From: an uncultured Prevotella sp.
GTDB taxonomy: Bacteria > Bacteroidota > Bacteroidia > Bacteroidales > Bacteroidaceae
Assembly: GCA_944320355.1 (NCBI GenBank)
Contig: CALUHC010000035.1
Span: 1 to 64,000, forward strand
Direction of reading: 5' to 3'
DNA: 64,000 nucleotides
Each line of letters begins with the position of its first letter. Position 1 is the first letter of the stretch. The notes under the pieces are model-generated. The model worked only from the letters and a program-made list of their open reading frames with translations. It searched no databases and was not told the DNA's origin. This document shows, in pieces, positions 9,691 to 61,345 of the stretch. The position numbers and the translations under genes were made by a program.

Positions 9691-9769
9691 AAACGTGCCG
9701 TTTTGCATTGCGAAACGGCACGTTTTACCGCCTGAAACGACCCGTTTCAGAGGCCAAAACGGCACGTTT
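9691..9769. repeat. 22-bp palindrome array, copy 1
   Basis: Palindromic cores AAACGNNNCGTTT start at 9691, 9713, 9735 and 9757, each exactly 22 bp from the last. The right flank is CTGATTATCAATGAGTTAC, shared with the copies at 29735, 31668, 43817 and 54411. Confidence 0.9.
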
Positions 9770-9958
9770 CACAACCCCACTGATTATCAATGAGTTACTG
9801 AGGCGGCGCGAACACCGCGGCAACGGGCGCGGAATGGTAAAAAACATTGACAAGAACGGGCTTTCCGTACAGCCCCAACCAACCTGTAAACCGAATGCCG
9901 ACACCCTTGCGACAACGGCAAACCGACAAACCGCAAAAACGTTTACTATCGCCTTAAT

Positions 9959-9980
9959 ATATGTACAGCCGTGTACATAT
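9959..9980. promoter_or_regulatory. Operator-like palindrome
   Basis: ATATGTACA-gccg-TGTACATAT is a perfect 9-bp inverted repeat with a 4-bp centre, ending 8 bp before a -7 box. It has the size and place of a dimeric regulator site. Confidence 0.6.
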
Positions 9981-9988
9981 CATTGTTA

Positions 9989-10062
9989 TAACTTTGCAAA
10001 AGCCAAGCGACAATCGGGAAATGGCAAACAAGTTTGCTTTCCGCTCGTTGGCATTGGCTTTG
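9989..10062 (+). promoter_or_regulatory. Twin -7 box region (66 bp apart)
   Basis: TAACTTTG at 9989 and a weaker TGGCTTTG at 10055 are separated by exactly 66 bp. A dyad, GGCAAACAAGTTTGCTT, lies between them. The same plan occurs at 26834, 29588, 44108 and 61456. Confidence 0.65.
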
Positions 10063-10083
10063 CAAAAGAAAAGGTTCAAGACA

Positions 10084-10755
10084 ATGAAAAAGCGTTTACA
10101 CATAAGCATAGTGCGCACGGCGGGCATCGCGCTCGCCGCCGTGACCGCGCTCACGTCACCCGCATCAGCCCGGGCGCAGACCGTCGACGCACACTCACAC
10201 ATCATCACCACCGACCTGATCGGGCTGCTCGCCCGCCACGGCGCGGAGTTGGAGGAGACGTTCCCCCTGCCCGCCTGGAGCGCGGAGGCGCACGTGGCCT
10301 TCATGGACTCGGCCGGAATAAACTGAGCTGCGCTCACCATGCCCGCCCCGCAACCCTACTACGGCGACACGGCGGAGAGCGCGGCGTGCATCCGCAAGGT
10401 GAACGAGGCGGCGGCGCGGGCCAAGGCCGACCACCCGGGGCGGTTCATATTCTGCGCCGCCCTGCCCCTGCCCGATGTAGGGGCGGCCGTGCGCGAGGCC
10501 ATATACGCGCTCGACACACTCGGCGCCGACGGCGTGAAGCTGGCCACCAACAGCCGCGGCCAGTACTTGGGCGACCCTGCCCTCGACACGCTCATGGCCG
10601 TGCTAAACAGCAGGAAGGCCGTGGCGATAATCCATCCGCACCGACCCACGCCCTGCAACGAGGCCACCACCGCCGCCACCCAGGCAGGAAGCTGCATCAG
10701 CCACAGCCATCCCACTGCTCCCGGCCATCCCATAACTCCCATCAAAACCGAATGA
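10084..10755 (+). pseudogene. Broken amidohydrolase (ACMSD-like)
   Basis: The gene starts at 10084 with a signal peptide, MKKRLHISIVRTAGIAL, then DAHSHIITTDLIGLLARHG. An in-frame TGA at 10324-10326 interrupts it. The same frame goes on past the stop as LTMPAPQPYYGD, IYALDTLGADGVKLATNSRG and AIIHPHRP, exactly the continuation expected in amidohydrolases related to aminocarboxymuconate-semialdehyde decarboxylase. After HPHRP the family sequence ends abruptly and a low-complexity tail runs to a stop at 10755, so the metal-binding C-terminal third is missing too. Two independent lesions make it a pseudogene. An upstream -7 box and palindrome remain. Confidence 0.85.
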
Positions 10756-10778
10756 CCAACCAAAATAAACATACCGAT

Positions 10779-12357
<1,579 letters not shown>

Positions 12358-12371
12358 GACGGGAGGACGAT

Positions 12372-13028
12372 ATGCAGCGACGCGACTTCTTGAAAAAGGC
12401 ACTCGTGGCCGCCGGAACGGTGGCCGTGGGCGGCGGACTGGTGGGTGCCATAACCCGCGACGACGATAACGACAAAACAAAAAGCGACAAAGCAATGGAC
12501 ATACTTGTACTGACGGGCAGCCCGCGCCGCAACGGCAACTCTGCCCACCTGGCCGAACAGTTCATCAAAGGCGCACAGGAGAGCGGCCACAACGTGTTCC
12601 GCTTCGACTGCGCCATGCACGACGTGCAGCCCTGCCGGGCCTGCAACGCCTGCGGAATGGACGGCCCCTGCGTGCTGAAGGACGACTTCGGCATAATAAG
12701 GCAGCGCATCATCGACGCCGACATGGTGGTGTTCGCCACGCCGATGTACTACTTCGGCATCTCGGCACAGATGAAACGGGTGATAGACCGCTTCTATGCC
12801 ATCAACGGACGGATAAAGGGTCACGCCAAGAAAGCGGCCTTCATGATGACCTACGCCGACACTTCCACGAAGGAGGCGGAGCCGATGCTCATGCACTACC
12901 GCACGCTGATGGACTACCTCGGGTGGCAGAGCGTGGGCGAGGTCGTGGCTCCCGGCGTGTGGACGGAAGGCTCGGTGAAAGACACCAAGTACGCCGAGCA
13001 GGCGTATGAGCTGGGGAAGAGGGTGTGA
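12372..13028 (+). CDS. Tat-exported NAD(P)H-dependent FMN reductase (flavodoxin fold)
   Basis: The N terminus MQRRDFLKKALVAAGTVAVGG is a twin-arginine signal. Residues about 45-215 form a flavodoxin-like domain: LTGSPRRNGNS binds FMN phosphate, CRACNACGMDGPC is a cysteine cluster seen in iron-sulfur flavoprotein relatives, and ATPMYYFGISAQMKRVIDR is typical. The gene starts 14 bp after the aldo/keto reductase. Export of a flavoprotein next to Tat-exported Fe-S reductases suggests an envelope redox chain. A run of 66-bp tandem repeats starts just beyond the stop. Confidence 0.88.
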   Translation: MQRRDFLKKALVAAGTVAVGGGLVGAITRDDDNDKTKSDKAMDILVLTGSPRRNGNSAHLAEQFIKGAQESGHNVFRFDCAMHDVQPCRACNACGMDGPCVLKDDFGIIRQRIIDADMVVFATPMYYFGISAQMKRVIDRFYAINGRIKGHAKKAAFMMTYADTSTKEAEPMLMHYRTLMDYLGWQSVGEVVAPGVWTEGSVKDTKYAEQAYELGKRV

Positions 13029-13044
13029 AAACTTGTTATATCAA

Positions 13045-13240
13045 GAAACAGGAGTTATATGGAGTCAGAAGAAGTTACAGGGAGTTAGAGGACGTTACCC
13101 ATGTTACTATGGAACAGGAGTTAGAAGAAGTCAGAAGAAGTTACAGGGAGTTAGAGGACATTACCCATGTTACTATGGAACAGGAGTTAGAAGAAGTCAG
13201 AAGAAGTTACAGGGAGTTAGAGGACATTACCTATGTAAAT
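13045..13240 (+). repeat. 66-bp tandem repeats
   Basis: Three units begin GAAACAGG or GGAACAGG at 13045, 13111 and 13177, spaced exactly 66 bp, and contain GGAGTTAGAGGACRTTACC. They begin within 20 bp of a stop codon. An inverted set follows at 13271. Confidence 0.9.
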
Positions 13241-13270
13241 GCCCACGCTAATTACCCGGCAAAACATTTG

Positions 13271-13450
13271 TCCTCTAACTCCTCCTAACTCCATATAACT
13301 CCTTCTAACTCCTACTACGCAGTAGCATAGGTAACGTCCTCTAACTCCTCCTAACTCCATATAACTCCCTCTAACTCCTACTACGCAGTAGCATAGGTAA
13401 CGTACTCTAACTCCTCCTAACTCCATATAACTCCCTCTAACTCCTTAAAA
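13271..13450 (-). repeat. 66-bp tandem repeats, inverted set
   Basis: Units with TCCTCTAACTCCTCCTAACT at 13271, 13337 and 13403 are again spaced 66 bp and run opposite to the set at 13045, so transcripts across both sets could fold into a long hairpin. The set ends about 15 bp before the start at 13466, so it lies in the leader of that gene. Confidence 0.88.
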
Positions 13451-13465
13451 ACACTTCAACCAAAC

Positions 13466-14623
13466 ATGAAACAAGCAATACTCTCACTTGCGCTCACAGT
13501 GGCGGCGATGTTGCCCGCCGCGGCGCAGACCACAGACAACGCGACAACGGAAGAAGAAACTGACCGCGCCGAGCTGTGCCGGCAGAACTACCGCACGCTG
13601 TTCGGCGGCGAGGCGCTCACCGGCAAGGGCACCGACCCCGAGATGATGGCCATACTGCAGAAGTTCATCTTCGGCGAGGTGTTCGCCACAGGCGACCTCA
13701 CCATGAAGCAGCGCGAGCTGATCACCTGCGTGGTGCTGGCCTCCATGCAGACCCTGCCGCAGCTGACGGCACACGCCGGGGCGGCCCTCAACGTGGGCGT
13801 GAAGCCCGAAGAGCTGCGCGAGGCGATGTACCTCACGGCGCCGTTCATAGGCTTTCCCAAGATGCTCAACGCCGTAGGCACGGTGAACGAAGTGCTAAGG
13901 CAGCGCGGCATCAGCCTGCCACTGGAGAGTCGGACCACCGTGACCGAGGCCACGCGCCACGAGCGCGGCGCGGCCATACAGGACTCGCTGTACAGCGGGG
14001 GCATAGACGCGGCGATGGCGGGAGTGCCGGACGGCATGGGCGGCGACGTGGCGCGGATGCTCACAGACTACTTCTTCGGCGAGATATACACCCGTGACGC
14101 ACTCGACCTGAAGACGCGCGAGCTGCTCGGATACTGCATACTGACGGCCATCGGGGCCGACAGCCAGCTGCAGTCGCACTACCACGGCAGCCTGAAGGCG
14201 GGCAACAGGCCCGAGACCATGGCCGCCGCTGTGGTGCAATGCCTGCCCTACGTGGGTTTCCCCGCAGCCATAAAGGCTCTCAGGATAATGAAGCAGGAGG
14301 CGGCAAAGCCCGCGCCTGCGGCCGAAAACCTGGTGCGGCTGTCGAGGATTGAGGTCGATCCGGCCTGCCTCGCCGACTACAACGCCATGCTGAAGGAGGA
14401 GATCGACGCATCGCTGGCCAAGGAACCGGGCGTGCTCGCGCTCTATGCCATGGCCCAGAAGGACGCTCCACACCTGATAACCATCCTCGAGATATACGCC
14501 GACCGCACCGCCTACGAGAGCCACATCAAGTCGCCCCACTTCCTGAAATACAAGCGGGGAACGCTCGAAATGGTGAAAAACCTCGAACTCATCGACACAA
14601 ACCCGATAGCGGGAAGGAGGTGA
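13466..14623 (+). CDS. Exported two-domain carboxymuconolactone decarboxylase with C-terminal monooxygenase-like domain
   Basis: The 385-residue protein has a signal peptide (MKQAILSLALTVAAMLPAAAQ). Residues about 45-140 and 170-270 are two carboxymuconolactone decarboxylase units, each with the helical LKTRELLGYCILTAIGADSQL-like pattern. The AhpD-type CxxC pair is absent, so peroxidase function is unlikely. Residues about 290-380 (VRLSRIEVDPACLADYNAML and ALYAMAQKDAPHLITILEIY) resemble an antibiotic-biosynthesis monooxygenase, dimeric alpha/beta barrel. The order CMD-CMD-ABM suggests a handler of aromatic or quinone compounds, in line with the reductases upstream. The exact substrate is unknown. 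Confidence 0.83.
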   Translation: MKQAILSLALTVAAMLPAAAQTTDNATTEEETDRAELCRQNYRTLFGGEALTGKGTDPEMMAILQKFIFGEVFATGDLTMKQRELITCVVLASMQTLPQLTAHAGAALNVGVKPEELREAMYLTAPFIGFPKMLNAVGTVNEVLRQRGISLPLESRTTVTEATRHERGAAIQDSLYSGGIDAAMAGVPDGMGGDVARMLTDYFFGEIYTRDALDLKTRELLGYCILTAIGADSQLQSHYHGSLKAGNRPETMAAAVVQCLPYVGFPAAIKALRIMKQEAAKPAPAAENLVRLSRIEVDPACLADYNAMLKEEIDASLAKEPGVLALYAMAQKDAPHLITILEIYADRTAYESHIKSPHFLKYKRGTLEMVKNLELIDTNPIAGRR

Positions 14624-14676
14624 ACCCTATCAAGGAGTTAAGGAAAAGTCTCCTTGACTCCTAAAATATGATTTAC

Positions 14677-14855: not shown

Positions 14856-14941
14856 TACAGCCATCTGCCCATACTTGCAGATATGCAACTATAAACCGCG
14901 GCCGTTTCCTTGATTTTCAGTATTTGCCATATCGCGCCACA

Positions 14942-15020
14942 AAACGCCCCGTTCTGCACTGCGATATGACCCGTTTCGGCTTGCAAAACGGCACATTTCG
15001 CAAGGCGAAACGACCCGTTT
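14942..15020. repeat. 22-bp palindrome array, copy 2
   Basis: Cores begin at 14942, 14964, 14986 and 15008 (22-bp steps), two of them degenerate. The array ends 52 bp before the palindrome TTAACAT-aaaa-ATGTTAA at 15073-15090, and TTGCAGATATGCAA lies on the other side near 14875. This is the plan shared by the arrays at 20177, 46783 and 61245. Confidence 0.88.
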
Positions 15021-15339
15021 TGCAACTCATTGAATATCAATCGATTGGCTGGAATCGCCTTTATGGCGGTCTTTAACATAAAAATGTTAACGGCAACGCG
15101 TGCCTGTGGACAGGCGCAAAGCGTATGGGCTGTTTGCGGATATACATAACACAATCCACAAACTCATAAAGAAACATTGCCCTGACTCCTAAAAATCAAA
15201 TAGCCAACAAAAGCTATTGCCTCTATTCTCCGCGCTCAAGGAAACCCCTCTCTCACTCACAACGAGTCCCATCACCACCAAACGCCTGGCAAGCGCCGAC
15301 ACCAATTGCCGGCTTTCCAAACGCTTTCATCCTCTTGTC

Positions 15340-18991: not shown

Positions 18992-18995
18992 CACC

Positions 18996-20021: not shown

Positions 20022-20176
20022 CCTCAATGCCGCATCAGACCGCCGCAACTTGCTTCCCGGGTTTATATTACCCCAAACCGCCGTGGGTGGCCACGGCGGT
20101 TTGGGGTAATTGCATATACGCAACTAAAAAAGGCACGGCAGGCATTGGATTCGCGTATGCGCCGTTCCGCATTCCG

Positions 20177-20255
20177 AAACGGCACGTTTCGCGCCGCAAA
20201 ACGTGCCGTTTCATCACCCGGAACGCGCCGTTTTGGAACCCAAAACGGCGCGTTC
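20177..20255. repeat. 22-bp palindrome array, copy 3
   Basis: Cores start at 20177, 20199, 20221 and 20243, with a weaker unit at 20155. The palindrome TTAACAT-aaaa-ATGTTAA at 20308-20325 again lies 52 bp beyond the last core, and TTGCATATACGCAA lies on the other side near 20110. Confidence 0.9.
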
Positions 20256-20430
20256 CGCAATGCACTGAAAGCCAAATAGTTAGACAAGGAGGCCGGCGCC
20301 AGCGCCTTTAACATAAAAATGTTAACCGCCACACACGGCATCCGGCCGCGACACGGCGCACCAAGAGGCGGCCGGCATCAGGCACCTCCTTCTGGCAGCA
20401 CCATCGCCCCGCTGCGCGCCGGCGTGCGCC

Positions 20431-23874: not shown

Positions 23875-24091
23875 GTGGGCCGCGATGTGTTAACGGATGC
23901 TAACGCACAGCCTCTCCCGCGCCTCCTGCCGCACCGGTATTATCGCCCGAGAATGCCGCCTGAGCAAATTTTCCGCCGGCAGGCGGCAAATACGGCCAAA
24001 ATGGGCGTGCAATCCCAACCGCCTGTGCGTCAGTCTCTTCATGCCGTTTGTGGTCCGGGTGTGCAACAATTCGCGCCGCGCCACGACGCGA

Positions 24092-24170
24092 AACGGCCTG
24101 TTTTGAAATGCAAAACGCCCCATATCGCACTGCGATACGGGGCGTTTTGTGCTGTGACACTTGCCGTTTG
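24092..24170. repeat. 22-bp palindrome array, copy 4 (degenerate)
   Basis: Units near 24092, 24114, about 24136 and about 24158 keep the 22-bp phase, but only the first keeps most of the palindrome. Two neighbours form a longer inverted repeat around CATATCGCACTGCGATA. No gene is seen in 23875-24383. A hairpin in the minus direction, around ATCGCGGCCTCGGC/CGGAGGCCGCGATTTT near 24245-24282, is a likely terminator. Confidence 0.7.
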
Positions 24171-28916: not shown

Positions 28917-29135
28917 TTCAGGAGACAGGAGTTCAGGAGTTGCAGGAGTTCAGACATTACTTCAGTAGTCAGGAGTCCAGGAGTTGCTGGAGTTCAGACA
29001 ATACTTCAGTAGTCAGGAGTTCAGGAGTTGCTGGAGTTCAGACATTACTTCAGTAGTCAGTAGTTCAGGAGTTGCTGGAGTTCAGACAATACTTCAGTAG
29101 TCAGTAGTCCAGGAGTTGCAGGAGTTCAGACATTA
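28917..29135 (+). repeat. 44-bp tandem repeats (TTCAGTAGTC units)
   Basis: TTCAGTAGTC begins at 28961, 29005, 29049 and 29093, each 44 bp apart. The units contain GGAGTTCAGACAWTAC and GGAGTTGCTGGAGTTC. They lie between two divergently expressed regions and encode nothing recognisable. Confidence 0.9.
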
Positions 29136-29139
29136 CCTT

Positions 29140-29661: not shown

Positions 29662-29734
29662 CAAGTGCCCGCGAGGCCGCCCGCAACAGGCCGCGATGCG
29701 TATCAAAAAACAAAGGATGCCGTTTGGCCTTGCG

Positions 29735-29813
29735 GAACGTGCCGTTTCGCGCTCTGAAACGGCCCGTTTCGGCGTGCAAAACGGCACGTTTTGGAAGACG
29801 AAACGGCACGTTT
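29735..29813. repeat. 22-bp palindrome array, copy 5
   Basis: Cores at 29735, 29757, 29779 and 29801, with a half site 22 bp before the first. Left flank GCGTATCAAAAAACAAAGG and right flank TTGATTATCAACGGGTTAC match copies 8 and 10. Confidence 0.92.
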
Positions 29814-29978
29814 CGCAACACCATTGATTATCAACGGGTTACAGAGACAGAACGAACCGCACGGCGAGTAGCAAAAAACAAAGGCGCGGGCTGCGGCTCA
29901 CGGCACGGCGATGTGGGCGGAGAAGCACGGCCACACGCCGGACACCAATGACCAAGACTACCATAAAACAAGACATAA

Positions 29979-31667: not shown

Positions 31668-31746
31668 AGACGTGCCGTTTCGCGCCGTGAAACGGCACGT
31701 TTCGCACGATGAAACGGCGCGTTTCGCAAGCCAAAACGGCACGTTT
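31668..31746. repeat. 22-bp palindrome array, copy 6
   Basis: Cores at 31668, 31690, 31712 and 31734, followed by CTGACTATCAATGGATTGAG and, near the next gene, AAAAAACATTAACG. Confidence 0.9.
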
Positions 31747-31855
31747 TGCACGGCGGAACAATGCGCACGGCCAACCCACTGACTATCAATGGATTGAGAG
31801 AACAGCACCCGCCATGTCGCACCGGGTGCCGAATGATAAAAAACATTAACGCGAA

Positions 31856-34800: not shown

Positions 34801-35278
34801 GCTCATCGCCGAGGTGGTGAGCGCGGTGCGACGGGGGCATCCCGATGACTTCGACCCCGCCTCCACGGTGGGCGTCATAGTGCCTTACCGCAACCAGATA
34901 GCCGCCGTGCGCGACGCGCTGGAGCGCGCCGGGGTGGCCGAGGCGCACCGCATAGGCATCGATACCGTGGAGCGTTATCAGGGCAGTCAGCGCGATGTGA
35001 TAGTCTATGGCTTCACCGTCAGCCGCCCGTACCAGCTCAACTTCCTCACGTCGAACGTGTTCTTTGAGGACGGAATGCCCATAGACCGCAAGCTGAACGT
35101 GGCCATGACCCGCGCCCGCGAGCACCTCGTGATGGTTGGCAACGCCCCCCTGCTGCGTCGAAACGCCGTCTTCGCACGGCTGATAGACTATGTGAAGGAG
35201 CACGGCGGGTACTTCGACATGACGGAAGAGGGCAACGGGCAGAGTGCAGAACGCAGAGTGATGAGTGCTGAGGTATGA
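31856..35278 (+). CDS. Dna2-like nuclease-helicase
   Basis: The 1140-residue protein combines a Cas4/Dna2-type nuclease and a superfamily 1 helicase. The nuclease (about 300-400) has GLQGRMDLLQ with D343, IEQKSGKG with E359 and K361, and a following HxxQLLLYMALL. Cys residues that could hold an Fe-S cluster are not arranged clearly. The helicase (about 690-1120) has Walker A GPPGTGKTS (706-714), VIDEASQ, GDHKQLPAV, ERYQGSQRDVIVYG and NVAMTRARE. It probably acts on replication or repair intermediates. Its last 12 residues (QSAERRVMSAEV) are encoded by a copy of the 44-bp repeat family. Confidence 0.9.
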   Translation: MDSATTYISETAGEFFAELEGAATLSGGDIRRAYAALRGVFRRAVDQSLLHSDIAFAGLFAKVDHLLREHSVGEPLAHYINDTRARLRRADDTSADELRRHFAYDLKNVARFISIICGGDPLPASLVALLPRGDLDTERDDLLADCLRVVVRAASGTTATVTAPHGDALRVELTDEWADLAPLLAPGTQLNLVRPRAEGDTVRAELIILEPDYLVDISAIAACFETYGESPYTYLLNKLKPAPLTVHTLLGNFAGQLLDEAVHGRERTYAESAAIFFRRNALALAACPGVDAAFHREARAQRDNIRRAVRTVLPAEVGIFSPEEAVLEPSFFSEMLGLQGRMDLLQMDTCRPGSCVLIEQKSGKGAFPPPPDPDTPRHQEKHYVQLLLYMALLRYNHCRRGADVRAFLLYSRYRNSLVRLGPAPELLRRALMLRNRIVWCELWYARGGISMLARLTPEHLNTALASGRLWEQYSRPQIEALLRPVHQATPTERAYYFRFMAFLEREHLLAKLGNKTKENSGFAAKWHDTLEEKLLAGNIYCDLKIESLLPAEGEEAGVGRVRLAFGSSRDAEGANFRTGDIVILYSYRCGTEPDARLTVVMRATIAAITTDRLELWLRNPQADSRVFSRPPGHAWAVEHDLFESSFTSLYRAMHSFLSAPARRRELILGLRQPEADASIGLSGDYGQFSELVLHAKQARDFFLVIGPPGTGKTSFAMLNIVKEELFDADSAVLVMAYTNRAVDEACSKLAESGIDFVRLGSAMACAEPYRDCLLERRVARCANIDEVRRLIASTRVFCATTSSLNSNASLLAMKRFTLAVIDEASQILEPHVVGLLSATTDGMESISRFVLIGDHKQLPAVVQQTADESRVGDPQLRAIGLTDCRDSLFERLLRTHRANPSVVYMLTRQGRMHRDIASFPAHAFYADRLRVVPLAHQELPLPPCPAADSAAGRMVDGCRVAFVNVPPADDDASDKVNTAEARLIAEVVSAVRRGHPDDFDPASTVGVIVPYRNQIAAVRDALERAGVAEAHRIGIDTVERYQGSQRDVIVYGFTVSRPYQLNFLTSNVFFEDGMPIDRKLNVAMTRAREHLVMVGNAPLLRRNAVFARLIDYVKEHGGYFDMTEEGNGQSAERRVMSAEV

Positions 35279-35330
35279 TTAGCTTTAGTGCAGAGAGCAG
35301 AGTGCTGAATGCAGAGGTATGATTACTTAG
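35245..35330 (+). repeat. 44-bp repeats overlapping the helicase 3' end
   Basis: GGTATGATTA at 35272 and 35316, 44 bp apart, with CAGAGTGATGAGTGCTGA-type sequence before each. The first unit provides the final codons and stop of the helicase gene. Confidence 0.85.
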
Positions 35331-35441
35331 GGTGCAGGAAACTTAATGACAGTTCACAAAGCTATTGTCCTTTAACTTCCGAGCGGAGTGCAACGAAGCT
35401 CAAACTTCTTTTAACTCCATTTTAACTTCTAAACAAACAAT

Positions 35442-38322: not shown

Positions 38323-38401
38323 AGACAGGCCGTTTCACCGCCCCAAACGGCATATATTGCGATGCGAAACGACCCGTTTCAGCCCCCAAGACGGCGCGTT
38401 T
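38323..38401. repeat. 22-bp palindrome array, copy 7
   Basis: Units at 38323, 38345, 38367 and 38389 keep the 22-bp phase; the second and the AGACG starts of the first and fourth are degenerate. The array ends 135 bp before the serine dehydratase promoter. No gene is seen in 37975-38535. Confidence 0.85.
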
Positions 38402-43684: not shown

Positions 43685-43816
43685 TGTCTTGCTTTGTTTC
43701 TTTGTTATGCCTGCTGCTCTGCGCTTACGCTGGAGCCGGGCAGGAACTTAGATTTTTGCCACACGCCGTGCAGCCCGCGCCGCCTCTGTAACCCATTGAT
43801 AATCAGCGGGGTTACG

Positions 43817-43917
43817 AAACGTGCCGTTTTAGCCTCTAAAACGTGCCGTTTTGGGCGATGAAACGACCCGTTTTGCATTGCGAAACGGCACGTTCTGCAC
43901 GGCGAAACGGCAGCCTT
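43817..43917. repeat. 22-bp palindrome array, copy 8 (five units)
   Basis: Cores at 43817, 43839, 43861, 43883 and 43905. The array lies between the murF start and its likely promoter at 44035, so it should be transcribed. Flanks CATTGATAATCAGCGGGGTT and TTCGTTTTTTGATACGC match copies 5 and 10 in inverse order. Confidence 0.92.
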
Positions 43918-44034
43918 CGTTTTTTGATACGCCTGCGGACGCTGTGGGGCAGGCTGCCTGCCCCATTGCTCCGGCGCATTTCCCATACACCGCCGCCCGC
44001 TCTCCGGTGATTCTCTGTCGCAGCTTATCTTATG

Positions 44035-46636: not shown

Positions 46637-46782
46637 CCGCCGCTCCCCCTGGAAGAGGGCCGGGAGAAGGCCATAGTGCCGGAAAGCGCGTCTCGACACA
46701 ACATCATTGCCGTTAACTTTTTCATGTTAAAGGCGACGGTATGCGCCGCGCCGGCTAACCATCTGACAGCCAACACATTGCA

Positions 46783-46883
46783 AAACGACCCGTTTCGGCT
46801 TGCGAAACGGGTCGTTTTGGCTTGCGAAACGCGCCGTTTCACACGATGAAACGCGCCGTTTTGCGCGGCGAAACGGCACATAG
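46783..46883. repeat. 22-bp palindrome array, copy 9 (five units)
   Basis: Cores at 46783, 46805, 46827, 46849 and 46871. A TTAAC/ATGTTAA palindrome at 46713-46730 lies 52 bp before the first unit. TTGCATATTTGCAAGC follows about 32 bp after the last, so the whole 220-bp plan is conserved in inverse order with copies 2 and 3. Confidence 0.93.
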
Positions 46884-47067
46884 GCGAAAACAAGTCCCGC
46901 CGCGCCTTTTCTAATTGCATATTTGCAAGCATGGGCAAAACGCCGCAAGCAGAAACCGTTTGGGGCTGGCAGCCCTCCCATGTGGTGAACCTCCGTGGCG
47001 CACCAGTCCGCCTGCCTGTGAGCATCTTGCGCTCTTTCACCAACAAGAACGCAAGCTGCCTGGCGGC

Positions 47068-53436: not shown

Positions 53437-54147
53437 ATGAAAAAGATTGCAGTGCTCACGGGAGCCGGAATGTCGGCCGAGAGCGGGCTGAAGACCTTCC
53501 GCGACGCCGGAGGGCTGTGGGAGGAGTACCCGGTGCAGCAGGTGGCGTCGCACGAGGGGTGGCTGGCCGACCCGGCGTTGGTGACCCGATTCTACAACGA
53601 ACGGCGCAGGCAGCTGGTCGGCGCGCGCCCCAACGAGGGCCACAGGCTCGTGGCCGCGCTCGAGAACGACTACAGCGTGACGGTGATAACGCAGAACGTG
53701 GACAACCTGCACGAGCAGGCCGGATCGACAAACGTGATACACCTGCACGGCGAACTGATGAAGGTATGCTCAAGCCGCGACCCCTACGACCCTAAGTACA
53801 TAAGGGAGCTGACCGCCGACGACTGCGAGGTGGAGCCGGGCACGCTGGCCGGCGACGGCTCGCTGCTGCGCCCCTTCATCGTGTTCTTCGGCGAGGCGGT
53901 GCCCATGATAGAGCCGGCGGCCGACGTGGTGGCCGAAGCCGACATCATGGTCATCATCGGGACGTCGCTCAACGTATATCCCGCCGCCGGGCTGGTGGCA
54001 TACGCCAAGCCCTCCGCCCCGATATACCTGATAGACCCCAACGCCGTGAACACAGGCCGGTACCGCAACATCAGGCGGATAATGAAAGGCGCGTCGGAAG
54101 GCATGAGGGAGCTTACGGAGATGCTCAGAACTCAGAGTGATGAGTGA
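53437..54147 (+). CDS. Sir2-family NAD-dependent protein deacylase without zinc cysteines
   Basis: The 236-residue sirtuin has the NAD motif GAGMSAESG (9-17), TFRDAGGLW, TQNVDNLHEQAG and the catalytic H104 in HLHGEL, then RPFIVFFGEAVP and GTSLNVYPAAGL. Class III sirtuins normally have two CxxC pairs for zinc after the His. Here only C111 and C130 exist, so that site cannot form as usual. The protein removes acyl groups from lysine by NAD cleavage. The gene ends inside a 44-bp repeat (last residues RTQSDE). Confidence 0.92.
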   Translation: MKKIAVLTGAGMSAESGLKTFRDAGGLWEEYPVQQVASHEGWLADPALVTRFYNERRRQLVGARPNEGHRLVAALENDYSVTVITQNVDNLHEQAGSTNVIHLHGELMKVCSSRDPYDPKYIRELTADDCEVEPGTLAGDGSLLRPFIVFFGEAVPMIEPAADVVAEADIMVIIGTSLNVYPAAGLVAYAKPSAPIYLIDPNAVNTGRYRNIRRIMKGASEGMRELTEMLRTQSDE

Positions 54148-54205
54148 AGAGGTATGATTGCCTTGAGAACAGAACTCAGAGTGATGAGTGAAGAGGTATG
54201 ATTGC
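54118..54205 (+). repeat. 44-bp repeats at the sirtuin 3' end
   Basis: GGTATGATTG at 54151 and 54195, 44 bp apart, each after an AACTCAGAGTGATGAGTGAA sequence. The first unit overlaps the last codons of the sirtuin gene. Confidence 0.85.
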
Positions 54206-54410
54206 CTTGAGAACGGGATGCATCATGCCCCTTCGCCCTCCACGGAAAGGAGGCCGGGCTGTGCCGGGCTGGCCTGCAAGATGCCTAAGTGGCATACGAC
54301 GCCTATGCCGACTAAGCACACCGCCAGGGTCGCCTATCTGCACCATCCGCGCCGCCCGCAAAGCCCTCCAAAAACGTATCGAAAAACAAAGGGTGCCGCT
54401 TGGCCTTGCA

Positions 54411-54489
54411 AAACGTGCCGTTTTGCATCGCGAAACGGGTCGTTTTGGAGCGCAAAACGGCACGTTTTAGAGGCCAAAACAGCACGTTT
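54411..54489. repeat. 22-bp palindrome array, copy 10
   Basis: Cores at 54411, 54433, 54455 and 54477, with a half site at 54389. Flanks CGTATCGAAAAACAAAGGG and ACTGAGTATCAATGAGTTAC match copies 5 and 8. Confidence 0.93.
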
Positions 54490-54671
54490 TGCAACCCCAC
54501 TGAGTATCAATGAGTTACAGAGGCGGTGCGGGCGGCACGGCGCGTAGCAAAAAACTAAGGTCGTACCGGGTACGGGACGCAGCCTTGCTGCCTGCTCCAC
54601 ACATCCTCTTTTAATACTTATGAATATCCGTAAACACCTTATAGCCTTTTTAAGGCAAGTTATTTCGGATA

Positions 54672-54742: not shown

Positions 54743-54804
54743 TAGGAGCTTTGCGGATAATATTTTAATTTTTAATCTTTAACTTTTAACATAAAAACGT
54801 CATT

Positions 54805-57207
54805 ATGAAGAAAAGGCTAATCTACACCATGCTGGCCGCAACGGCCATGCTGACAGGCGCGGAGAGCCGCGCGGAAGACAACATCCTGACTTACGACAAG
54901 CCAGCCACGCGCTTTGAGGAGGCCCTGCCGCTGGGCAACGGCAGCATGGGCGTGATGGTATATGGCGGCGTGGGCGAGGAGACGCTCAACCTCAACGAGG
55001 AGACGCTGTGGGGCGGAGGCCCCGTCAACCCCGACCCCACGCCCGACGCGCCCAAGTACCTGCCCGAGGTGCGCCGCCTGCTGTTCGAAGGCAAATGGGC
55101 CAAGGCGGCGGCCGTGCTGCGCAACATACAGGGGCCAAACGTGCAGTCGTTCGTGCCGATGGGCAACCTGTACATAAGGCAAGACGTGGGCGGCAAGGCC
55201 ACAGACTACAACCGGCGGCTCGACATCGGCCGCGCCGTGGCCACCACGAGCTTCACCATAGACAGCGTGGAATACACCCGCGAGGTGTTCGTGTCGGCAC
55301 CGGCGCGGGTGGCCGTGATGAGGCTGCGCGCCTCAAAACCCGGCGCGCTGACCTTCAGCGTGAGCGGCGACACGCCCTTCGAGGGCTGCTGCGTGCGCAG
55401 CGTGGCGGCCGGCGAGTTTGTCGTCTCGGGGCGCGTGCCATACTCGGTGGACACGGAGCGCCGCTATCCAATGGTATATACAGGTCCTAACGGCGAGCGC
55501 GGCATGGCCTACCAGTACCGCGTCAGGGTGATAGCGGACAGCGGCACGGTGAGCACAACGCCGTTCATCAACGTGAGCAAGGCCACCGACGTGACCCTTA
55601 TAATATCGGCGGCGACGAGCTTCAACGGCTACGACCGCCGGCCCGACACCGAGGGGCTCGACGCAGACTCCATAGCCTCGGCGCGCATGAAGGCCGCCGC
55701 CAAGGTGGCTTACGACTCGCTGCTGGCCGAGCACGTGGCCGACCACCGCGGCTACTTCGACCGCCTAAGCCTCGACATAGCCCCGGCAGACACCTCGACC
55801 ATGCCCACCGACAGGCGGCTGAAGGCCTACGCCGGGGGCAACGACGACCGCGCGCTGGAGGAACTCTACTTCAACTTCGGCCGATACCTGCTCATATCGT
55901 GCTCGCGCCCGGGCGGCATAGCGGCCAACCTGCAGGGCATCTGGAACAAGAACACGCGCCCGTCGTGGGGCAGCCAGTTCACCACCAACATCAACCTGCA
56001 GATGAACTACTGGCCCGCCGAGCCGCTCAACCTCACAGAGCTGACCGAACCGCTGACGCGACAGATACAGAACATGGCCGCCAACGGCCGGGCCACGGCG
56101 CGGAACTTCTACGGCATGGGCGGATGGGCCGCCCACCACAACTCTGACATCTGGGCGCAGACGTCGCCCGTGGGCCACCGCCGGGGCGACCCCAAGTGGG
56201 CCAACTGGGCACTGGGCTCGCCGTGGCTGTCGCAGCATCTGTACGAGCACTACCGCTTCACGCAGGACATCGGCTACCTGCGCGACGTGGCCTATCCGCT
56301 GATGAAGGGCGCGGCGGAGTTCTGCCGCGACTGGCTCGTGGAGAAAGACGGCCACCTGGTCACCGCGCCCTCCACCTCGCCCGAGAACGTCTTCATAGAC
56401 GAGAACGGCAACAGGGGCACTGTCACCATAGCCTCGGCCATGGACATGGAGATCATCTGGGACCTGCTCACCAACCTGATAGAGGCATCCGAGACCCTTG
56501 GCACCGACAAACAGCTGCGCCGAGAGTGGGCCGCCGTGCGCGACAGCCTCATGCCTCTGCGCATAAAAAGCGACGGCGCGCTCATGGAATGGTGGAAAGA
56601 CTGGAAAGACCAGGACCCGCAGCACCGCCACGTGTCGCACCTCTTCGGACTGCACCCGGGCCGGCAGATCTCGCCGATAACCACCCCCGAGCTGGCCGAG
56701 GCCTGCCGCAAGACGCTCGAGATACGCGGCGACGGCGGCACGGGATGGAGCAAGGCGTGGAAGATAAACTTCTGGGCGCGGCTGCTCGACGGCGATCATG
56801 CCTACAAGATGGTGCGCGAGCTGCTGGCCAAATCGACCCTGCCCAACCTCTTCGACACGCACCCGCCGTTCCAGATAGACGGCAACTTCGGCGCGATAGC
56901 GGGCATGGGCGAGATGCTTCTGCAGAGCCAGAACGGCGAACTGCACCTGCTCCCGGCGCTGCCATCGCGCTGGGCCGACGGCGAGGTGCGCGGCATGAAG
57001 GCCCGCGGCGGCTTCGGCGTTGACATGAAGTGGCGCGGCGGCCGGCTCGTCTCAGCCACCATCACCTCGCAGGCAGGCCGCCCCTGCACCCTGCGCACCG
57101 CCCGCAAGGTGGCCGTAAAGGGCGCAAAGGCCAAGTCGGTGCGCCAAGGCAATTACTGGATAACCACGTTCAAGACGAAGAAAGGGGAGAAATACTTCGC
57201 TCATTGA
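54805..57207 (+). CDS. Exported GH95 alpha-L-fucosidase
   Basis: The 800-residue enzyme has a signal peptide (about 1-23). It then shows the GH95 layout: an N-terminal beta domain with EEALPLGNGSMGVMVYGG and LNLNEETLWGGGP, a helical linker, the (alpha/alpha)6 barrel with NLQGIWNKNTRPSWGSQF and TAPSTSPENVF, and a C-terminal beta domain. The motif NFGAIAGMGEMLLQS is also typical. It cleaves alpha-1,2-fucose or, in some members, galactose from host or plant glycans. Its leader contains palindrome and AACTCC repeats; 44-bp repeats start at its stop. Confidence 0.95.
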   Translation: MKKRLIYTMLAATAMLTGAESRAEDNILTYDKPATRFEEALPLGNGSMGVMVYGGVGEETLNLNEETLWGGGPVNPDPTPDAPKYLPEVRRLLFEGKWAKAAAVLRNIQGPNVQSFVPMGNLYIRQDVGGKATDYNRRLDIGRAVATTSFTIDSVEYTREVFVSAPARVAVMRLRASKPGALTFSVSGDTPFEGCCVRSVAAGEFVVSGRVPYSVDTERRYPMVYTGPNGERGMAYQYRVRVIADSGTVSTTPFINVSKATDVTLIISAATSFNGYDRRPDTEGLDADSIASARMKAAAKVAYDSLLAEHVADHRGYFDRLSLDIAPADTSTMPTDRRLKAYAGGNDDRALEELYFNFGRYLLISCSRPGGIAANLQGIWNKNTRPSWGSQFTTNINLQMNYWPAEPLNLTELTEPLTRQIQNMAANGRATARNFYGMGGWAAHHNSDIWAQTSPVGHRRGDPKWANWALGSPWLSQHLYEHYRFTQDIGYLRDVAYPLMKGAAEFCRDWLVEKDGHLVTAPSTSPENVFIDENGNRGTVTIASAMDMEIIWDLLTNLIEASETLGTDKQLRREWAAVRDSLMPLRIKSDGALMEWWKDWKDQDPQHRHVSHLFGLHPGRQISPITTPELAEACRKTLEIRGDGGTGWSKAWKINFWARLLDGDHAYKMVRELLAKSTLPNLFDTHPPFQIDGNFGAIAGMGEMLLQSQNGELHLLPALPSRWADGEVRGMKARGGFGVDMKWRGGRLVSATITSQAGRPCTLRTARKVAVKGAKAKSVRQGNYWITTFKTKKGEKYFAH

Positions 57208-57345
57208 GCGAAGTTATGAGTGAAGAGTGATGAGTGCAGAGGTATGATTACCTTCAGTGCAGAACGCAGAGTGCTGAGTGCAGAGGTATGATTACCTTCA
57301 GTGCAGAACGCAGAGTGATGAGTGCAGAGGTATGATTAGCTTTAG
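57205..57345 (+). repeat. 44-bp tandem repeats past the fucosidase
   Basis: GGTATGATTA at 57241, 57285 and 57329, 44 bp apart, with CAGAGTGCTGAGTGCAGA-type sequence between. They begin at the stop codon and are inverted relative to the set at 57442. Confidence 0.92.
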
Positions 57346-57364
57346 GGTAGCGACTCTTTATCTT

Positions 57365-57430
57365 AAAAAAAGAAGAAGGCGGCAAGGGTGTTTTATGGCA
57401 AAAGCCATTCGCATCCTTGCCGCCTTTTAT
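57365..57430. terminator. Bidirectional hairpin between convergent genes
   Basis: AAGGCGGCAAGG at 57376-57387 pairs with CCTTGCCGCCTT at 57415-57426. An A-run lies before and T residues after the stem, so it can end transcripts from both the fucosidase and kor sides. Confidence 0.75.
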
Positions 57431-57441
57431 GAGGCTTGCAT

Positions 57442-57575
57442 GGTAATCATACCTCTGCGCTCAGCACTCTGCGTTCTGCACTGAAGGTAATCATACCTCT
57501 GCACTCAGCACTCTGCGTTCTGCACTGAAGGTAATCATAACTCTGCGCTCAGCACTCTGACCTCTGTGCTGCTGT
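57442..57575 (-). repeat. 44-bp tandem repeats, inverted set
   Basis: GGTAATCATA at 57442, 57486 and 57530, spaced 44 bp, is the complement of the set at 57241. It ends close to the korB stop, so each convergent gene has its own set of units directly behind it. Confidence 0.92.
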
Positions 57576-58576
57576 CACTTCACCTCCCAGATGTCGTTAG
57601 TCTCCAGGAGTTCGCTGAAGTTGTGGTACTTCTTCTTTGCGCTTACCTCGGCAATCTGCTCGCTCACGGCCTCATCGTAGGTGGGAGCCTCCACGTCGCG
57701 GATTACGCCGAGAGCCACCGGGAAGCCGTGCTCGTTGTCCATCATGGCCAGCTTCAGCTGCAGGGTGTTGTCCTGGCTGTGGGCATCGTGTACGAGGATG
57801 TCATCGATGGTGATGCCGTTCTCGCCTATCTTCACCACCTTCAGGCCGAAGCCCTCCTGCATGAGGCCGTACTCATTGTTCTCGCCGAACACGAGCGGCT
57901 CGCCGTGGCGCACGTAGATGGCGTTCTTGGCGCGGCCCTCCTTTTTATATATGGGGTCGTAGCAGCCGTTGTTGAAGATGACGCAGTTCTGCAGAATCTC
58001 GCAAACCGACGCGCCCTTGTGCCTGTAGGCAGCCTTGAGCACGTCGATGGTGCCCTGCGCGTCGGTGGCCACGGCACGTGCGAAGAAGTGGCCGCGCGCG
58101 CCGAAGCACAGCTCGGCTGGCAGGAATGGGTCTTCAACCGTGCCGTAAGGGCTCGACTTGCTCACGAAGCCGCGCGGCGAAGTGGGCGAGTACTGGCCCT
58201 TGGTCAGACCGTAGATGCGGTTGTTGAGCAGTATGACGTTGATGTCAATGTTGCGCCGCATGGCGTGTATGAAGTGGTTGCCGCCAATGGCCAGGCCGTC
58301 GCCGTCGCCGCTTATCTGCCACACGGCGAGCTTAGGGTTGGCCACCTTCAGCCCCGTGGCTATGGCAGCCGCACGCCCGTGGATGGTCTGCATGGCGTAA
58401 GTGTTGACGTAATAAGGCAGTCGGCTCGAACAGCCGATGCCGGATATGACAGCCGTCTCGTAGGGCGGAACGCCCAGTTCGGCCATCGCCTTGTGCAGCG
58501 AGGCAAGGAAGAAATGGTCGCCGCAGCCGGGACACCACCTCGGTTGCCCCTTCTTATAGTCGGTAGGTGTAAACAT
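57575..58576 (-). CDS. korB: 2-oxoacid (2-oxoglutarate):ferredoxin oxidoreductase, beta subunit
   Basis: The 333-residue subunit binds thiamine diphosphate and an Fe-S cluster. It has WCPGCGDHFF (C15, C18), SGIGCSSRLPYYV, WQISGDGDGLAIGGNH for the cofactor Mg site, and LNNRIYGLTKGQYSPTS. With KorA (59025-60875) it converts 2-oxoglutarate, or a related 2-oxoacid, and CoA to the acyl-CoA and reduced ferredoxin, a usual step of the anaerobic Bacteroidota citrate path. A frameshifted four-helix-bundle gene lies between the two subunits. The preferred oxoacid is inferred from the family. Confidence 0.93.
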   Translation of the reverse strand: MFTPTDYKKGQPRWCPGCGDHFFLASLHKAMAELGVPPYETAVISGIGCSSRLPYYVNTYAMQTIHGRAAAIATGLKVANPKLAVWQISGDGDGLAIGGNHFIHAMRRNIDINVILLNNRIYGLTKGQYSPTSPRGFVSKSSPYGTVEDPFLPAELCFGARGHFFARAVATDAQGTIDVLKAAYRHKGASVCEILQNCVIFNNGCYDPIYKKEGRAKNAIYVRHGEPLVFGENNEYGLMQEGFGLKVVKIGENGITIDDILVHDAHSQDNTLQLKLAMMDNEHGFPVALGVIRDVEAPTYDEAVSEQIAEVSAKKKYHNFSELLETNDIWEVK

Positions 58577-58615
58577 ACAAGTTAAGAATTAGGAATTAAT
58601 AATTAAGAAAAATAC

Positions 58616-59004
58616 TTACGTGAGAGAGCTTTTAGAGTCATACTTAAGAGTGTTTGCCTTTGTTGTCTTTACTATGGAGGCCAAGATAGCCGTTATTTCG
58701 TCGGCTTCCTTGTGTATGGATGAATAGACATTGTCGTCTATGTACTCGCTGTCATGTAACAGGTTTATCCAATATAAGGTTTCGTTGGCCTCTTTCAATG
58801 CGATGGACATCTTGCTGACGAAGTCTGCCCGGCTCTGTGCGAACTTGGCTTCGCAGACGAGTGCGCCGATAGCCGTGCCGCTTCTGAGCAGCTGCTTGGA
58901 CATCCCCACTCGTTCTTCTCAGCGCAAAGATACTTGTATGCGTTGATTATCCGAAGGGAGAAGGCGTAACTCCGTTTGCCGATCGTAACATCGCTTGAAG
59001 GCAT
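58616..59004 (-). pseudogene. Four-helix-bundle (IVS-type) gene with a frameshift, inside the kor operon
   Basis: Two frames together give a full four-helix-bundle protein of the 23S rRNA intervening-sequence family. From 59004: TIGKRSYAFSLRIINAYKYL and CAEKNEW. From 58909: MSKQLLRSGTAIGALVCEAK to the end at 58616. The join lies at a GGGG run near 58905-58908, where one base is missing relative to an intact frame. It may be a real pseudogene, a slippery site, or a sequencing error. AT-rich AATTAAGAATT-type sequences flank it on both sides (58578-58615 and 59009-59040), like insertion scars. Family members of known structure are small pentamers of unclear function. Confidence 0.8.
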
Positions 59005-59024
59005 TCTTTCTTAACTCTTAATTC

Positions 59025-60875
59025 TTAACTCTTAATTATCTTCCCGAATGCCTTCACCAGCTCTGCCACTACGAACGGTTGGCCCTTCACCTGGTTGTAT
59101 TGGTAGGGTACGATTCCGTCCACGTTCATGCGCAGGTAGGCGGCAAACTGACCGAGGTTCTGCTCGGCCACCACCACCTTCTTATAGCTGCGGAGCACGG
59201 AGTAGGTGTTCTTGGGCAGCGGGTTGATGTACTTGAAGTGGGCCAGGGCCACCTTGTTGCCCTGCGAGCGCAGCTCCTCCATGGCCGAATAGAGGTGGCC
59301 GAAGGTGCTGCCGAAGCCCACGATGAGCAGCTCGGCGTCGTCTGCGTCGCCGAGGACCTCAACGTCCGGCACTGGAATCTTGAACACCTTCATGGCCCTG
59401 AGGCGGCACATCTTGTCGTGGTTCTCGGGGTCTGTGGATATGGCGCCTGTGTCGCCGTCCTTCTCCAGGCCGCCGAGTATGTGCTCGAAGCCCTCCTGTC
59501 CGGGTATGGCCCAGTAGCGCGCGCCGCTCTCCGGGTCGCGGTGGTAGGGCGAGTAGTGGCCCTTCTGCTCGGCGGGTGCGTAGTGCGGGTGGATGTCGGG
59601 CAGCTTGTTGATGTCGGGCAGCTTCCATGCGCCGGAGCCGTTGGCCACGAAAGCATCGGTGAGCAGCACCACGGGGGTGAGGTGCTCAAGGGCTATCTTG
59701 GCGGCTTCGTAAGCCGCGTCGAAGCAGTCGGTGGGGCTTGTGGCGGCTATCACGGGCATGGGGCTCTCGCCGTTGCGGCCGAAGAGGGCCTGCAGCAGGT
59801 CGGTCTGCTCGCTCTTTGTGGGCAGGCCCGTTGACGGACCGCCGCGCTGCACGTCGATGACAACGAGCGGCAGCTCGTCGATGACGGCCAGGTTCATGGC
59901 CTCAGACTTGAGGCAGATGCCCGGGCCGGAGGTGGAGGTGGCGGCCAGCGCGCCTGCGAACGACGCCCCGATGGCGCTGGCGCAGCCCGAGATTTCGTCC
60001 TCGCACTGCACTGTTATCACTCCGCACGACTTGTGCTTGGCCAGCTCGTGCAGTATGTCGGTGGCCGGGGTGATGGGGTACGAGCCGAGGTAGAGCTGCA
60101 GCCCGGCCTTCTCTGCGGCGGCTATGAGGCCGTAGGCGGTGGCCTTGTTGCCGGTTATGTCCATATAGCGGCCCGGCTGCTTGTTGGCTGTCTCTATGCG
60201 ATAGGTGGCCGGAACGCTCAGGTGTGTGTTGTGCGCGTAGTCATAGCCGGCGTTCACCACCTTGATGTTGCTCTCTGCTATGGCGGGCTTCTTGTCGAAC
60301 TTCTCGCGCAGGAAGGCCTCCACGAAGCTGATGTCGCGGTTGAAGAGCCAGCACACTATGCCCAGCGCGAACATATTGCGGCACTTCAGCACGCTCTTGT
60401 TGTCCATCCCGCTGTCGGCCAGGCAGTCCTTGACCATCTGGGTCATGGGGCAGGCAACGACGCGGTCGGGGTCTATTCCCATCTCGCCGAGATAGTCGGC
60501 AGTCTTGAACTCCGCCCTCTCCAGGTCCTTGGGGCCGAAGCTGTCGGTGTCTATTATGATTGTGGCCGCAGGCTTGGCGTAGCGGTACTGTGTCTTCAGC
60601 GCGGCTGCGTTCATGGCCACAAGCACGTCGCACTTGTCGCCCGGCGTGTAGACGCGCCCCGCGCCGATGTGTACCTGATAGCCCGACACGCCCGTGAGCG
60701 AGCCTTGCGGGGCGCGGATGTCAGCCGGATAGTCGGGGAATGTGGATATGCCGTTGCCTGCGGTGGCCGACACCGTAGAGAAGATGTTGCCGGCCAGCTG
60801 CATACCGTCGCCCGAGTCGCCCGAGAACCTGACCACCACTTGGTCGAGTTCCTTCACTTCCAATTTTTCTGCCAT
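59025..60875 (-). CDS. korA: 2-oxoacid (2-oxoglutarate):ferredoxin oxidoreductase, alpha subunit with fused gamma domain
   Basis: The 616-residue subunit starts with the gamma domain (about 8-190: VVRFSGDSGDGMQLAGNIFS, FPDYPADIRAPQG). The pyrimidine-binding alpha domain follows (about 225-480: YLGSYPITPATDILHELAKH, VQCEDEISGCASAIGASFAG), then a C-terminal domain (ELLIVGFGSTFGHLYSAMEE). This fused form is usual in Bacteroidota. It partners with KorB, whose gene lies downstream beyond a four-helix-bundle remnant. A weak -7 box (TTACTTTG on the minus strand, 60984-60991) lies about 110 bp upstream. Confidence 0.93.
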   Translation of the reverse strand: MAEKLEVKELDQVVVRFSGDSGDGMQLAGNIFSTVSATAGNGISTFPDYPADIRAPQGSLTGVSGYQVHIGAGRVYTPGDKCDVLVAMNAAALKTQYRYAKPAATIIIDTDSFGPKDLERAEFKTADYLGEMGIDPDRVVACPMTQMVKDCLADSGMDNKSVLKCRNMFALGIVCWLFNRDISFVEAFLREKFDKKPAIAESNIKVVNAGYDYAHNTHLSVPATYRIETANKQPGRYMDITGNKATAYGLIAAAEKAGLQLYLGSYPITPATDILHELAKHKSCGVITVQCEDEISGCASAIGASFAGALAATSTSGPGICLKSEAMNLAVIDELPLVVIDVQRGGPSTGLPTKSEQTDLLQALFGRNGESPMPVIAATSPTDCFDAAYEAAKIALEHLTPVVLLTDAFVANGSGAWKLPDINKLPDIHPHYAPAEQKGHYSPYHRDPESGARYWAIPGQEGFEHILGGLEKDGDTGAISTDPENHDKMCRLRAMKVFKIPVPDVEVLGDADDAELLIVGFGSTFGHLYSAMEELRSQGNKVALAHFKYINPLPKNTYSVLRSYKKVVVAEQNLGQFAAYLRMNVDGIVPYQYNQVKGQPFVVAELVKAFGKIIKS

Positions 60876-61244
60876 AAATCTTTTTCTGTGTTATTATATA
60901 AATATGATGTATCGCCACGCGCCCCACCCCACCCGGTCTTTGCGCCGGCGAAGCGGTGGCGGCACGCAAGGATTAACAGGATGCAAAGTAAGCAAACTTT
61001 GCCGAAATCGCAAAATGTTTTGCGATAAAAAACTTGATTTGGCATGATTTCACGCCCATGCTACGACAGAAAGTCAGAAAACAGGCTTTAAAAGTGTGAT
61101 TTTGTCACCATTACACCCGTCTGGATGAAATCCGACTCGCCACAGCCGGAAACGCAGGCACGGGCGGCCTGCCGTTAACTTAAAAACGTTAACGGCCGCA
61201 AGAGGGGACAAAGCGGGCAACAACCTGACAGACAGCGCATTGCA

Positions 61245-61345
61245 AAACAGGGCGCCTCAGCTTACAAAACGTGCCGTTTCGCCTTGCGAAACAGCACGTT
61301 TCGGACGGTGAAACGGGCCATATCGCAAGCTGAAACGGCACATAC
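61245..61345. repeat. 22-bp palindrome array, copy 11 (five units)
   Basis: Units at 61245, 61267, 61289, 61311 and 61333, the first and fourth degenerate. GCCGTTAAC/GTTAACGGC at 61171-61196 lies about 50 bp before the first unit, and TTGCGTATTTGCAAGC follows the last by about 32 bp, as in copy 9. Confidence 0.9.

Follow-up and report, generated by a model that had tools for sequence, protein, structure and literature searches.

The 64,000-nt window analysed here (positions 1 to 64,000 of contig CALUHC010000035.1, or C35, in assembly GCA_944320355.1 of an uncultured, rumen-type Prevotella sp.; 2.48 Mb, 80% complete) contains eleven intergenic arrays of the palindrome AAACGNNNCGTTT, which were shown to belong to a large family of elements built on a strict 22-bp lattice. 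This lattice is conserved, and the elements carrying it lie between genes and are evenly placed in their own genome. With about even confidence, the element is interpreted as a dispersed non-coding intergenic repeat, similar to bacterial interspersed mosaic elements (BIMEs) and to the PINSR repeat, which carries a phased protein-binding array. The arrays had been noticed in a first-pass annotation of the window, whose observation was confirmed and proved larger than stated, and whose interpretation is partly supported.

At a maximum of one mismatch, AAACGNNNCGTTT matched the window 38 times, compared with a mean of 1.8 and a maximum of 6 matches in 100 shuffled sequences. All eleven arrays reported previously are present, with only the start of the fourth shifted by one base, to 24091, and each comprises four in-phase units at a step of exactly 22 bp, every unit retaining at least seven of the ten fixed bases. 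The first-pass annotation had described four or five units per array, an exact step in ten of the eleven arrays, and later units in the fourth that were only approximate. Four is the number observed, the supposed extras being degenerate half units at some array ends, and the exact step applies to all eleven arrays, as the four units of the decayed fourth array are in phase when read from 24091.

Across the whole genome, 607 exact palindromes (30 for a reversed-pattern control) and 287 exact two-unit matches (none for the control) were identified. Array statistics were derived from a 668-kb sample, consisting of the window and further stretches and representing 27% of the assembly, which was found to contain 100 arrays, or one per 6.7 kb; scaling of this sample, combined with the whole-genome pattern counts, yields an estimated ~290-370 arrays for the assembly. 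Among successive strong units (i.e. those with 9 or 10 of the 10 fixed bases) less than 150 bp apart, 183 of 207 distances were 22 bp and 200 were a multiple of 22, with the others being 27 (n=1), 43 (n=2), 76 (n=3) and 99 bp (n=1). Three control palindromes returned no arrays, while a fourth, TTTGCNNNGCAAA, returned 56 and is not a clean null, probably because the spacer itself represents a dyad, TTTYGC-N3-GCRAAA.

The lattice was shown to run past the AAACG units and to include further palindromes (TTAACAT-N4-ATGTTAA, TTGCATATATGCAA and TTGATNATCAA), which had been missed in the first-pass annotation. Each array forms the centre of a mosaic element (length ~200 bp for class I) whose flanking palindromes share the lattice. 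Sorted by their flanks, the 100 arrays fall into class I (27), class II (27), class III (14), class IV (18) and others (14); classes I, II and III are represented in the window, where the arrays at 9691, 24091 and 31668 have no assigned class. Class I elements are arranged in the order TTAACATTTTTATGTTAA - TGATATTCAACGAGTTGC - four units - AAACGGCACATAC - AGTTGCATATTTGCAAGT, with end palindromes ~3 lattice steps before and ~6 after the first unit. When the end motifs were located independently of the array, 20 of 23 pairs were found to be 200 or 201 bp apart, the remaining three being separated by 195, 178 (-22) and 156 bp (-44). The 21 class I copies with both end motifs at the expected offsets exhibited a mean identity of 64% (52-88%), with 26-28% in the flanking sequence, and their MAFFT alignment contained a single internal 1-bp gap column, their lengths differing by only 1 bp. 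Since these copies were picked by motif offset, the unbiased test of end-motif distance represents the stronger statement. The two ends of class I elements are different palindromes, with no inverted repeat common to both.

Overlap with predicted genes did not exceed 40 bp for any of the 100 arrays, the coding fraction being 76% (our own open reading frame (ORF) caller). Their gene contexts are tandem (28 and 19), divergent (27) or convergent (21), with five at contig or stretch edges, and both array orientations were found in all gene contexts; a promoter or terminator element was rejected on the basis of these mixed contexts. Furthermore, the spacing is over-even, at ~6 kb: the 67 neighbour gaps on three contigs displayed a coefficient of variation (CV) of 0.44, with 1.5% of gaps below 2 kb, compared with a mean CV of 0.67-0.87 and 13-23% of gaps below 2 kb for random intergenic placement under 14 null models, in eight of which the gap was reduced by 230 bp for each element. 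In none of these 14 nulls was any of 2000 simulations as even as the observed arrangement. Spacing in Prevotella lacticifex is also even (24 elements in 420 kb; CV of 0.49 versus 0.89; P=0.0005), two of the 24 elements overlapping long ORFs.

A scan with the pattern across a collection of 84,980 species genomes returned at least 80 loci, 69 of which, among the matches listed, belong to Prevotella or other Prevotellaceae records (Marseilla massiliensis included). P. lacticifex and uncultured Prevotella lead the matches listed, and exact two-unit counts in 14 listed genomes were 110 for BRZ_QA bin92, 89 for P. lacticifex, 7-25 for five genomes and 1-3 for seven. A consensus-free test, which accepts any 5+3+5 palindrome in four units, produced a peak at the 22-bp step in P. 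lacticifex (21 arrays, versus 0-3 at other steps) and in the related genome G017 (13 versus 0-1), with a weaker peak in G016 (14 versus 0-7, at a lower threshold). The palindromes themselves differ: units are AAA-N7-TTT, drawn from a small set, in G017, AAACGATACGTTT in G157, and ATTTGATGCAAAT-like in G016, where one array adjoins the TTGATANTCAA motif shared with the Prevotella genome studied here. The step is therefore kept while the palindrome changes, and the proposal of the first-pass annotation that phase is better conserved than sequence is supported both within this genome and across species. Disappearance of the step in relatives, named in the first-pass annotation as grounds for doubting a shared function, was not observed. 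Retention of the spacing with changed letters in some related species is more indicative of a DNA-binding structure than of junk.

Several individual loci were also recorded. In G017 (loci L256-L265 and L204), the four slots draw on a small number of unit types, either direct or reverse-complemented, and the slot adjoining the flank motif is nearly fixed; in three copies, whole units are missing. A TCCCAGNNNGGGA array at a 22-bp step in G007 (L225:229) is unlike the other units and may be coding. AAACGNNNCGTTT arrays at 22 bp in a Treponema metagenome-assembled genome (MAG; L132:118) and a Spirochaetes MAG (L160:1833) have nearly constant spacers and are thus more like ordinary tandem repeats. 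One exact two-unit match was present in an IMG/VR viral contig (L170:7042-7076), whereas no phage match was obtained for the G017 element and no plasmid match for the element at 54375-54600 in the window.

The two halves of a palindrome vary independently of each other. Among 32 class I base pairs (five units and one end palindrome), none had changed on both sides, compared with a mean of 3.9 in shuffled data, and the halves within a unit were uncorrelated across 90 arrays. Independently varying half-sites are expected of protein half-sites and not of stems, fitting the dimeric protein suggested in the first-pass annotation; its other suggestion, RNA hairpin arrays, is not supported by single palindromes without compensatory changes. 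A second sequence feature accompanies many arrays: of the 100 arrays, 44 have the IHF-like consensus WATCARNNNNTTR at a distance of at most 60 bp, compared with 18 of 3027 random intergenic places, and 39 sites begin 14-15 bp beyond the edge of the array, from which they are directed outwards. Three HU/IHF-family proteins above the Pfam cut-off are encoded by the genome. Two tandem adjacent matches to this family (G000, contig C41, 93070-93638) are candidates for acting at the flank motif.

A preference for multiples of 22 bp was also observed among intergenic tandem repeats devoid of AAACG, 18 of 25 of which in the 668-kb sample have a period of 22, 44, 66 or 88, as compared with none of six tandem repeats in genes. 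In pooled Prevotella sequence, part of which was chosen for holding arrays, 119 of 141 intergenic tandem arrays (AAACG included) have a period that is a multiple of 22, with two at period 33; for periods of at least 40 bp, the proportion is 34 of 39. A stop-to-stop ORF mask of the pooled set placed many arrays 'in ORFs', 76 of 112 of these being multiples of 22; the gene caller used for the 18 of 25 gives a cleaner split between genes and intergenic DNA. The outgroup is too small for a comparison (0 of 2 for 148 kb from the same order; 2 of 3 intergenic for 88 kb of pattern-picked non-Prevotella loci). AA/TT steps outside the elements exhibit a broad period peak at 11.1 bp, at which pitch 22 bp would correspond to two turns. 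It is conceivable, if unlikely, that 22 bp is a genus-wide quantum of intergenic DNA imposed by a chromatin-like two-turn protein lattice (11 bp per turn), with palindrome arrays as nucleation sites whose recognition sequence drifts by species; sequence-unrelated repeat families would, on that doubtful reading, all fit multiples of 22 and not of 11 or 33.

Seven tandem arrays in the window, intergenic by midpoint and unrelated to the palindromes, have a period of exactly 44 or 66 bp. The 44-bp arrays at 57224-57342 and 57442-57559 lie close together and apparently face in opposite directions, resembling an inverted repeat of very large size, and the 66-bp arrays at 13047-13236 and 13270-13445 are apparently paired likewise. 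A perfect 21-bp tandem duplication (2.1 copies) at 61603-61647 is not a multiple of 22.

We propose that the conserved part of the element is a DNA structure, usually of four imperfect dyads on the strict 22-bp lattice, each composed of two roughly independent half-sites (AAACG or a variant), to which many copies add the IHF-like motif at a fixed distance. A dimeric protein would bind one dyad after another in a cooperative manner, keeping to one side of DNA that is slightly underwound (22 bp as two turns of 11 bp), and an IHF/HU-type protein would bend the array end. The palindromes would lie on nearly the same face of the helix, as proposed in the first-pass annotation, only if the helical repeat is close to 11 bp; with a repeat of 10.5 bp, every 22-bp step would, by arithmetic, add a rotation of ~34 degrees. 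The resulting nucleoprotein bodies, a few kilobases apart, could serve as nodes that organise the chromosome or buffer supercoiling, with a recognition sequence free to drift with the protein of each species and a spacing that would not be.

A number of results weigh against such a protein-bound structure. No binding protein for the arrays was identified, and the exact IHF-like motif is found near fewer than half of them. Although the 22-bp step is kept in several related genomes, the AAACG version is missing from most of the genus, with a match in 15 of 398 genomes (the present one included). Spacing in G017 is not even (17 elements in 200 kb; CV of 0.83; P=0.46). Across 95 arrays, the units in slots 0 and 1 are reverse complements of each other more often than expected by chance (stratified z=5.0; p<1/2000), which is not predicted by independent sites; the signal peaks in class I (z=5.1), is weaker for class IV (2.0) and class III plus others (2.3) and is absent from class II (0.7), and the other five slot pairs show no stratified signal (z between -1.1 and 1.5). 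This complementarity may reflect a cruciform, binding as a dimer of dimers, or sequence correction driven by hairpins. Whole-unit length changes, taken alone, could result from slippage. Array positions also turn over: of 91 syntenic comparisons of adjacent gene pairs, nine (eight gene pairs) have an array in the present genome, and the relative has one clear array (score 37/40), one decayed array (27/40) and none in seven cases, while two further syntenic comparisons score at least 30 in the relative only. Finally, at 21 orthologous loci of cdaA, POR and serine dehydratase, no array was found within 800-900 nt on the corresponding side (best scores 17-23 of 40), by which a fixed regulatory site of particular genes was rejected. 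The downstream neighbours of cdaA appear to differ from those of the present genome in seven genomes (L266-L272; protein 75-92% identical), which suggests heavy rearrangement.

The differing array positions indicate that the family has been gained and lost and could have spread by transposition, and the main rival explanation is a non-autonomous mobile element, similar to a miniature inverted-repeat transposable element (MITE), whose 22-bp units are the sites read by a transposase and whose even spacing results from target immunity or selection against clustering. Several hundred estimated copies in every intergenic context, array-free syntenic sites in relatives, species-specific motifs, over-even spacing and the more homogeneous family in G017 are all compatible with this explanation, which we regard as possible but somewhat unlikely. 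The seven array-free sites yielded alignments too diverged to show a target-site duplication. Against mobility, the class I ends share no inverted repeat, and the highest identity among the 21 class I copies, 88%, gives no sign of recent spread in this class; the age of the copies and their near-absence of indels argue for use in place. A Y1 (RAYT-type) transposase is absent from the present, 80% complete genome, G017, G157, G061 and G065, other transposase families not having been searched for; it is present in G016 and P. lacticifex. A RAYT-driven repetitive extragenic palindrome (REP) was rejected, as five of the seven carriers searched are devoid of this transposase.

That the arrays are functionless palindromes, produced because tandem repeats are added to and removed from the intergenic DNA of Prevotella in quanta of 22 bp during replication or repair across hairpins, is decidedly unlikely. 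Such an artefact would account for the unrelated intergenic repeats with the same period preference and for the whole-unit losses, and the complementarity of slots 0 and 1 could represent quasi-palindrome correction, but it does not lead one to expect the usual four units, the positioned IHF-like motif or the even spacing; moreover, the non-repeated flank motifs keep the lattice too, and species-wide uniform motifs beside diverged spacers suggest selection. Most improbable is an RNA element acting in transcripts as a hairpin array, terminator or attenuator. The palindromes could fold, and slots 0 and 1 covary and are paired by RNAalifold in class I, yet the single units lack double-sided changes, the arrays lie in both orientations across all gene contexts, and no Rfam match was obtained in the window. 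If the protein-bound lattice is correct, Prevotella, which is dominant in the rumen and in human mouths and guts, would possess dense phased architectural sites whose spacing is conserved while their letters turn over, providing a sequence-defined handle on chromosome organisation in Bacteroidota. The features identified in the window are listed in Table 1.

Table 1. Lattice elements, IHF-like sites and 44/66-bp tandem arrays in the 64,000-nt window
Feature	Position	Strand	Details
Array, no class	9691..9769		Four units AAACGNNNCGTTT at 22 bp; right flank class II-like
IHF-like site	9785..9797	+	TATCAATGAGTTA
Class I element	14873..15092	-	Array 14942-15020; end palindrome TTAACATAAAAATGTTAA 15073-15090; IHF-like site 15035-15047
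Class I element	20108..20327	-	Array 20177-20255; TTAACATAAAAATGTTAA 20308-20325; TTGCATATACGCAA 20110-20123
Decayed array, no class	24091..24169		Four in-phase units
Class II element, ends approximate	29690..29885	-	Array 29735-29813; IHF-like site TATCAACGGGTTA 29829-29841
Array, no class	31668..31746		Four units; IHF-like site 31784-31796, farther off than usual
Array of class III element	38323..38401	+	CGAARTGTTAAATT-type flank motif on right
Class II element, ends approximate	43745..43935	+	Array 43817-43895; IHF-like site 43789-43801 (minus strand)
Class I element	46711..46930	+	Array 46783-46861; TTAAC..GTTAA 46713-46730; TTGCATATTTGCAA 46915-46928
Class II element, ends approximate	54365..54560	-	Array 54411-54489; IHF-like site TATCAATGAGTTA 54505-54517
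Class I element	61173..61392	+	Array 61245-61323; TTAAC..GTTAA 61175-61192; TTGCGTATTTGCAA 61378-61391
Seven 44/66-bp tandem arrays	13047-13236, 13270-13445, 28917-29136, 35242-35337, 54126-54214, 57224-57342, 57442-57559		

The first-pass annotation knew of no named element with this plan; however, PINSR of Prevotella intermedia and Prevotella nigrescens is probably related. PINSR is described as an intergenic repeat of 188 bp, with 177 copies in one P. intermedia strain and 184 in another, without terminal inverted repeats, probably non-coding and of no known function, and as confined to one clade of the species tested by its authors; its carriers include P. nigrescens, and it was reported downstream of tnaA in P. 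intermedia (PMC4755523). The present element resembles PINSR in genus, intergenic location, similar length, more than 100 copies and the lack of inverted ends; neither a 22-bp lattice nor palindromes are mentioned in section 3.4 of the PINSR description (PMC4755523). Eight matches to the G017 element were located on a P. nigrescens replicon (best 75.5% identity over 74% of the query), and the consensus-free test applied to 200 kb of this replicon identified eight 22-bp arrays at a lower threshold (versus 0-5 at other steps) and three at the next (versus 0-1). Seven of the eight lie outside listed genes, and one, in an NADH dehydrogenase gene, is chance-like; downstream of tnaA in G017, no full element was found. 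Because P. nigrescens, a published PINSR carrier, has 22-bp arrays, PINSR is probably the lattice element or a close cousin, and the protein-bound lattice, if correct, would offer a function for this published repeat.

With regard to structure, the nearest parallel in Bacteroidales is BrickBuilt, a MITE of Porphyromonas gingivalis in which 1 to 22.8 direct repeats of 23 nt follow one another with no spacers, with 19 copies in one strain and IS5-type terminal inverted repeats (PMC4596501). Both are always intergenic, with a leader and tail flanking a short tandem array (PMC4596501), whereas the element described here has 22-bp dyads, variable 9-bp spacers, usually four units and an estimated 290-370 copies. 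It departs from BrickBuilt in period and spacers, no search having been made for the published IS5-type ends. Prevotella is not named in passages of PMC3733652.

The nearest functional parallel is the BIME. BIME/REP sequences are reported as mosaics of palindromic units that alternate in orientation, in more than 100 extragenic copies, with IHF interacting between units in BIME-1, and a chromosome-organising role was suggested for these sequences (PMC2817692). High-copy extragenic palindromes grouped in mosaics are found here as well, while the rigid 22-bp lattice, the different sequence and the lack of a consistent Y1/RAYT transposase set the present element apart. A putative IHF site lies beside many of the arrays at a fixed offset. 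The old idea that BIME-like repeats are chromosome-organising sites would, if our interpretation is correct, become testable through one number, the 22-bp step. Among repeats of the BIME/PINSR kind, the element has a geometry that is unusually rigid and open to testing.

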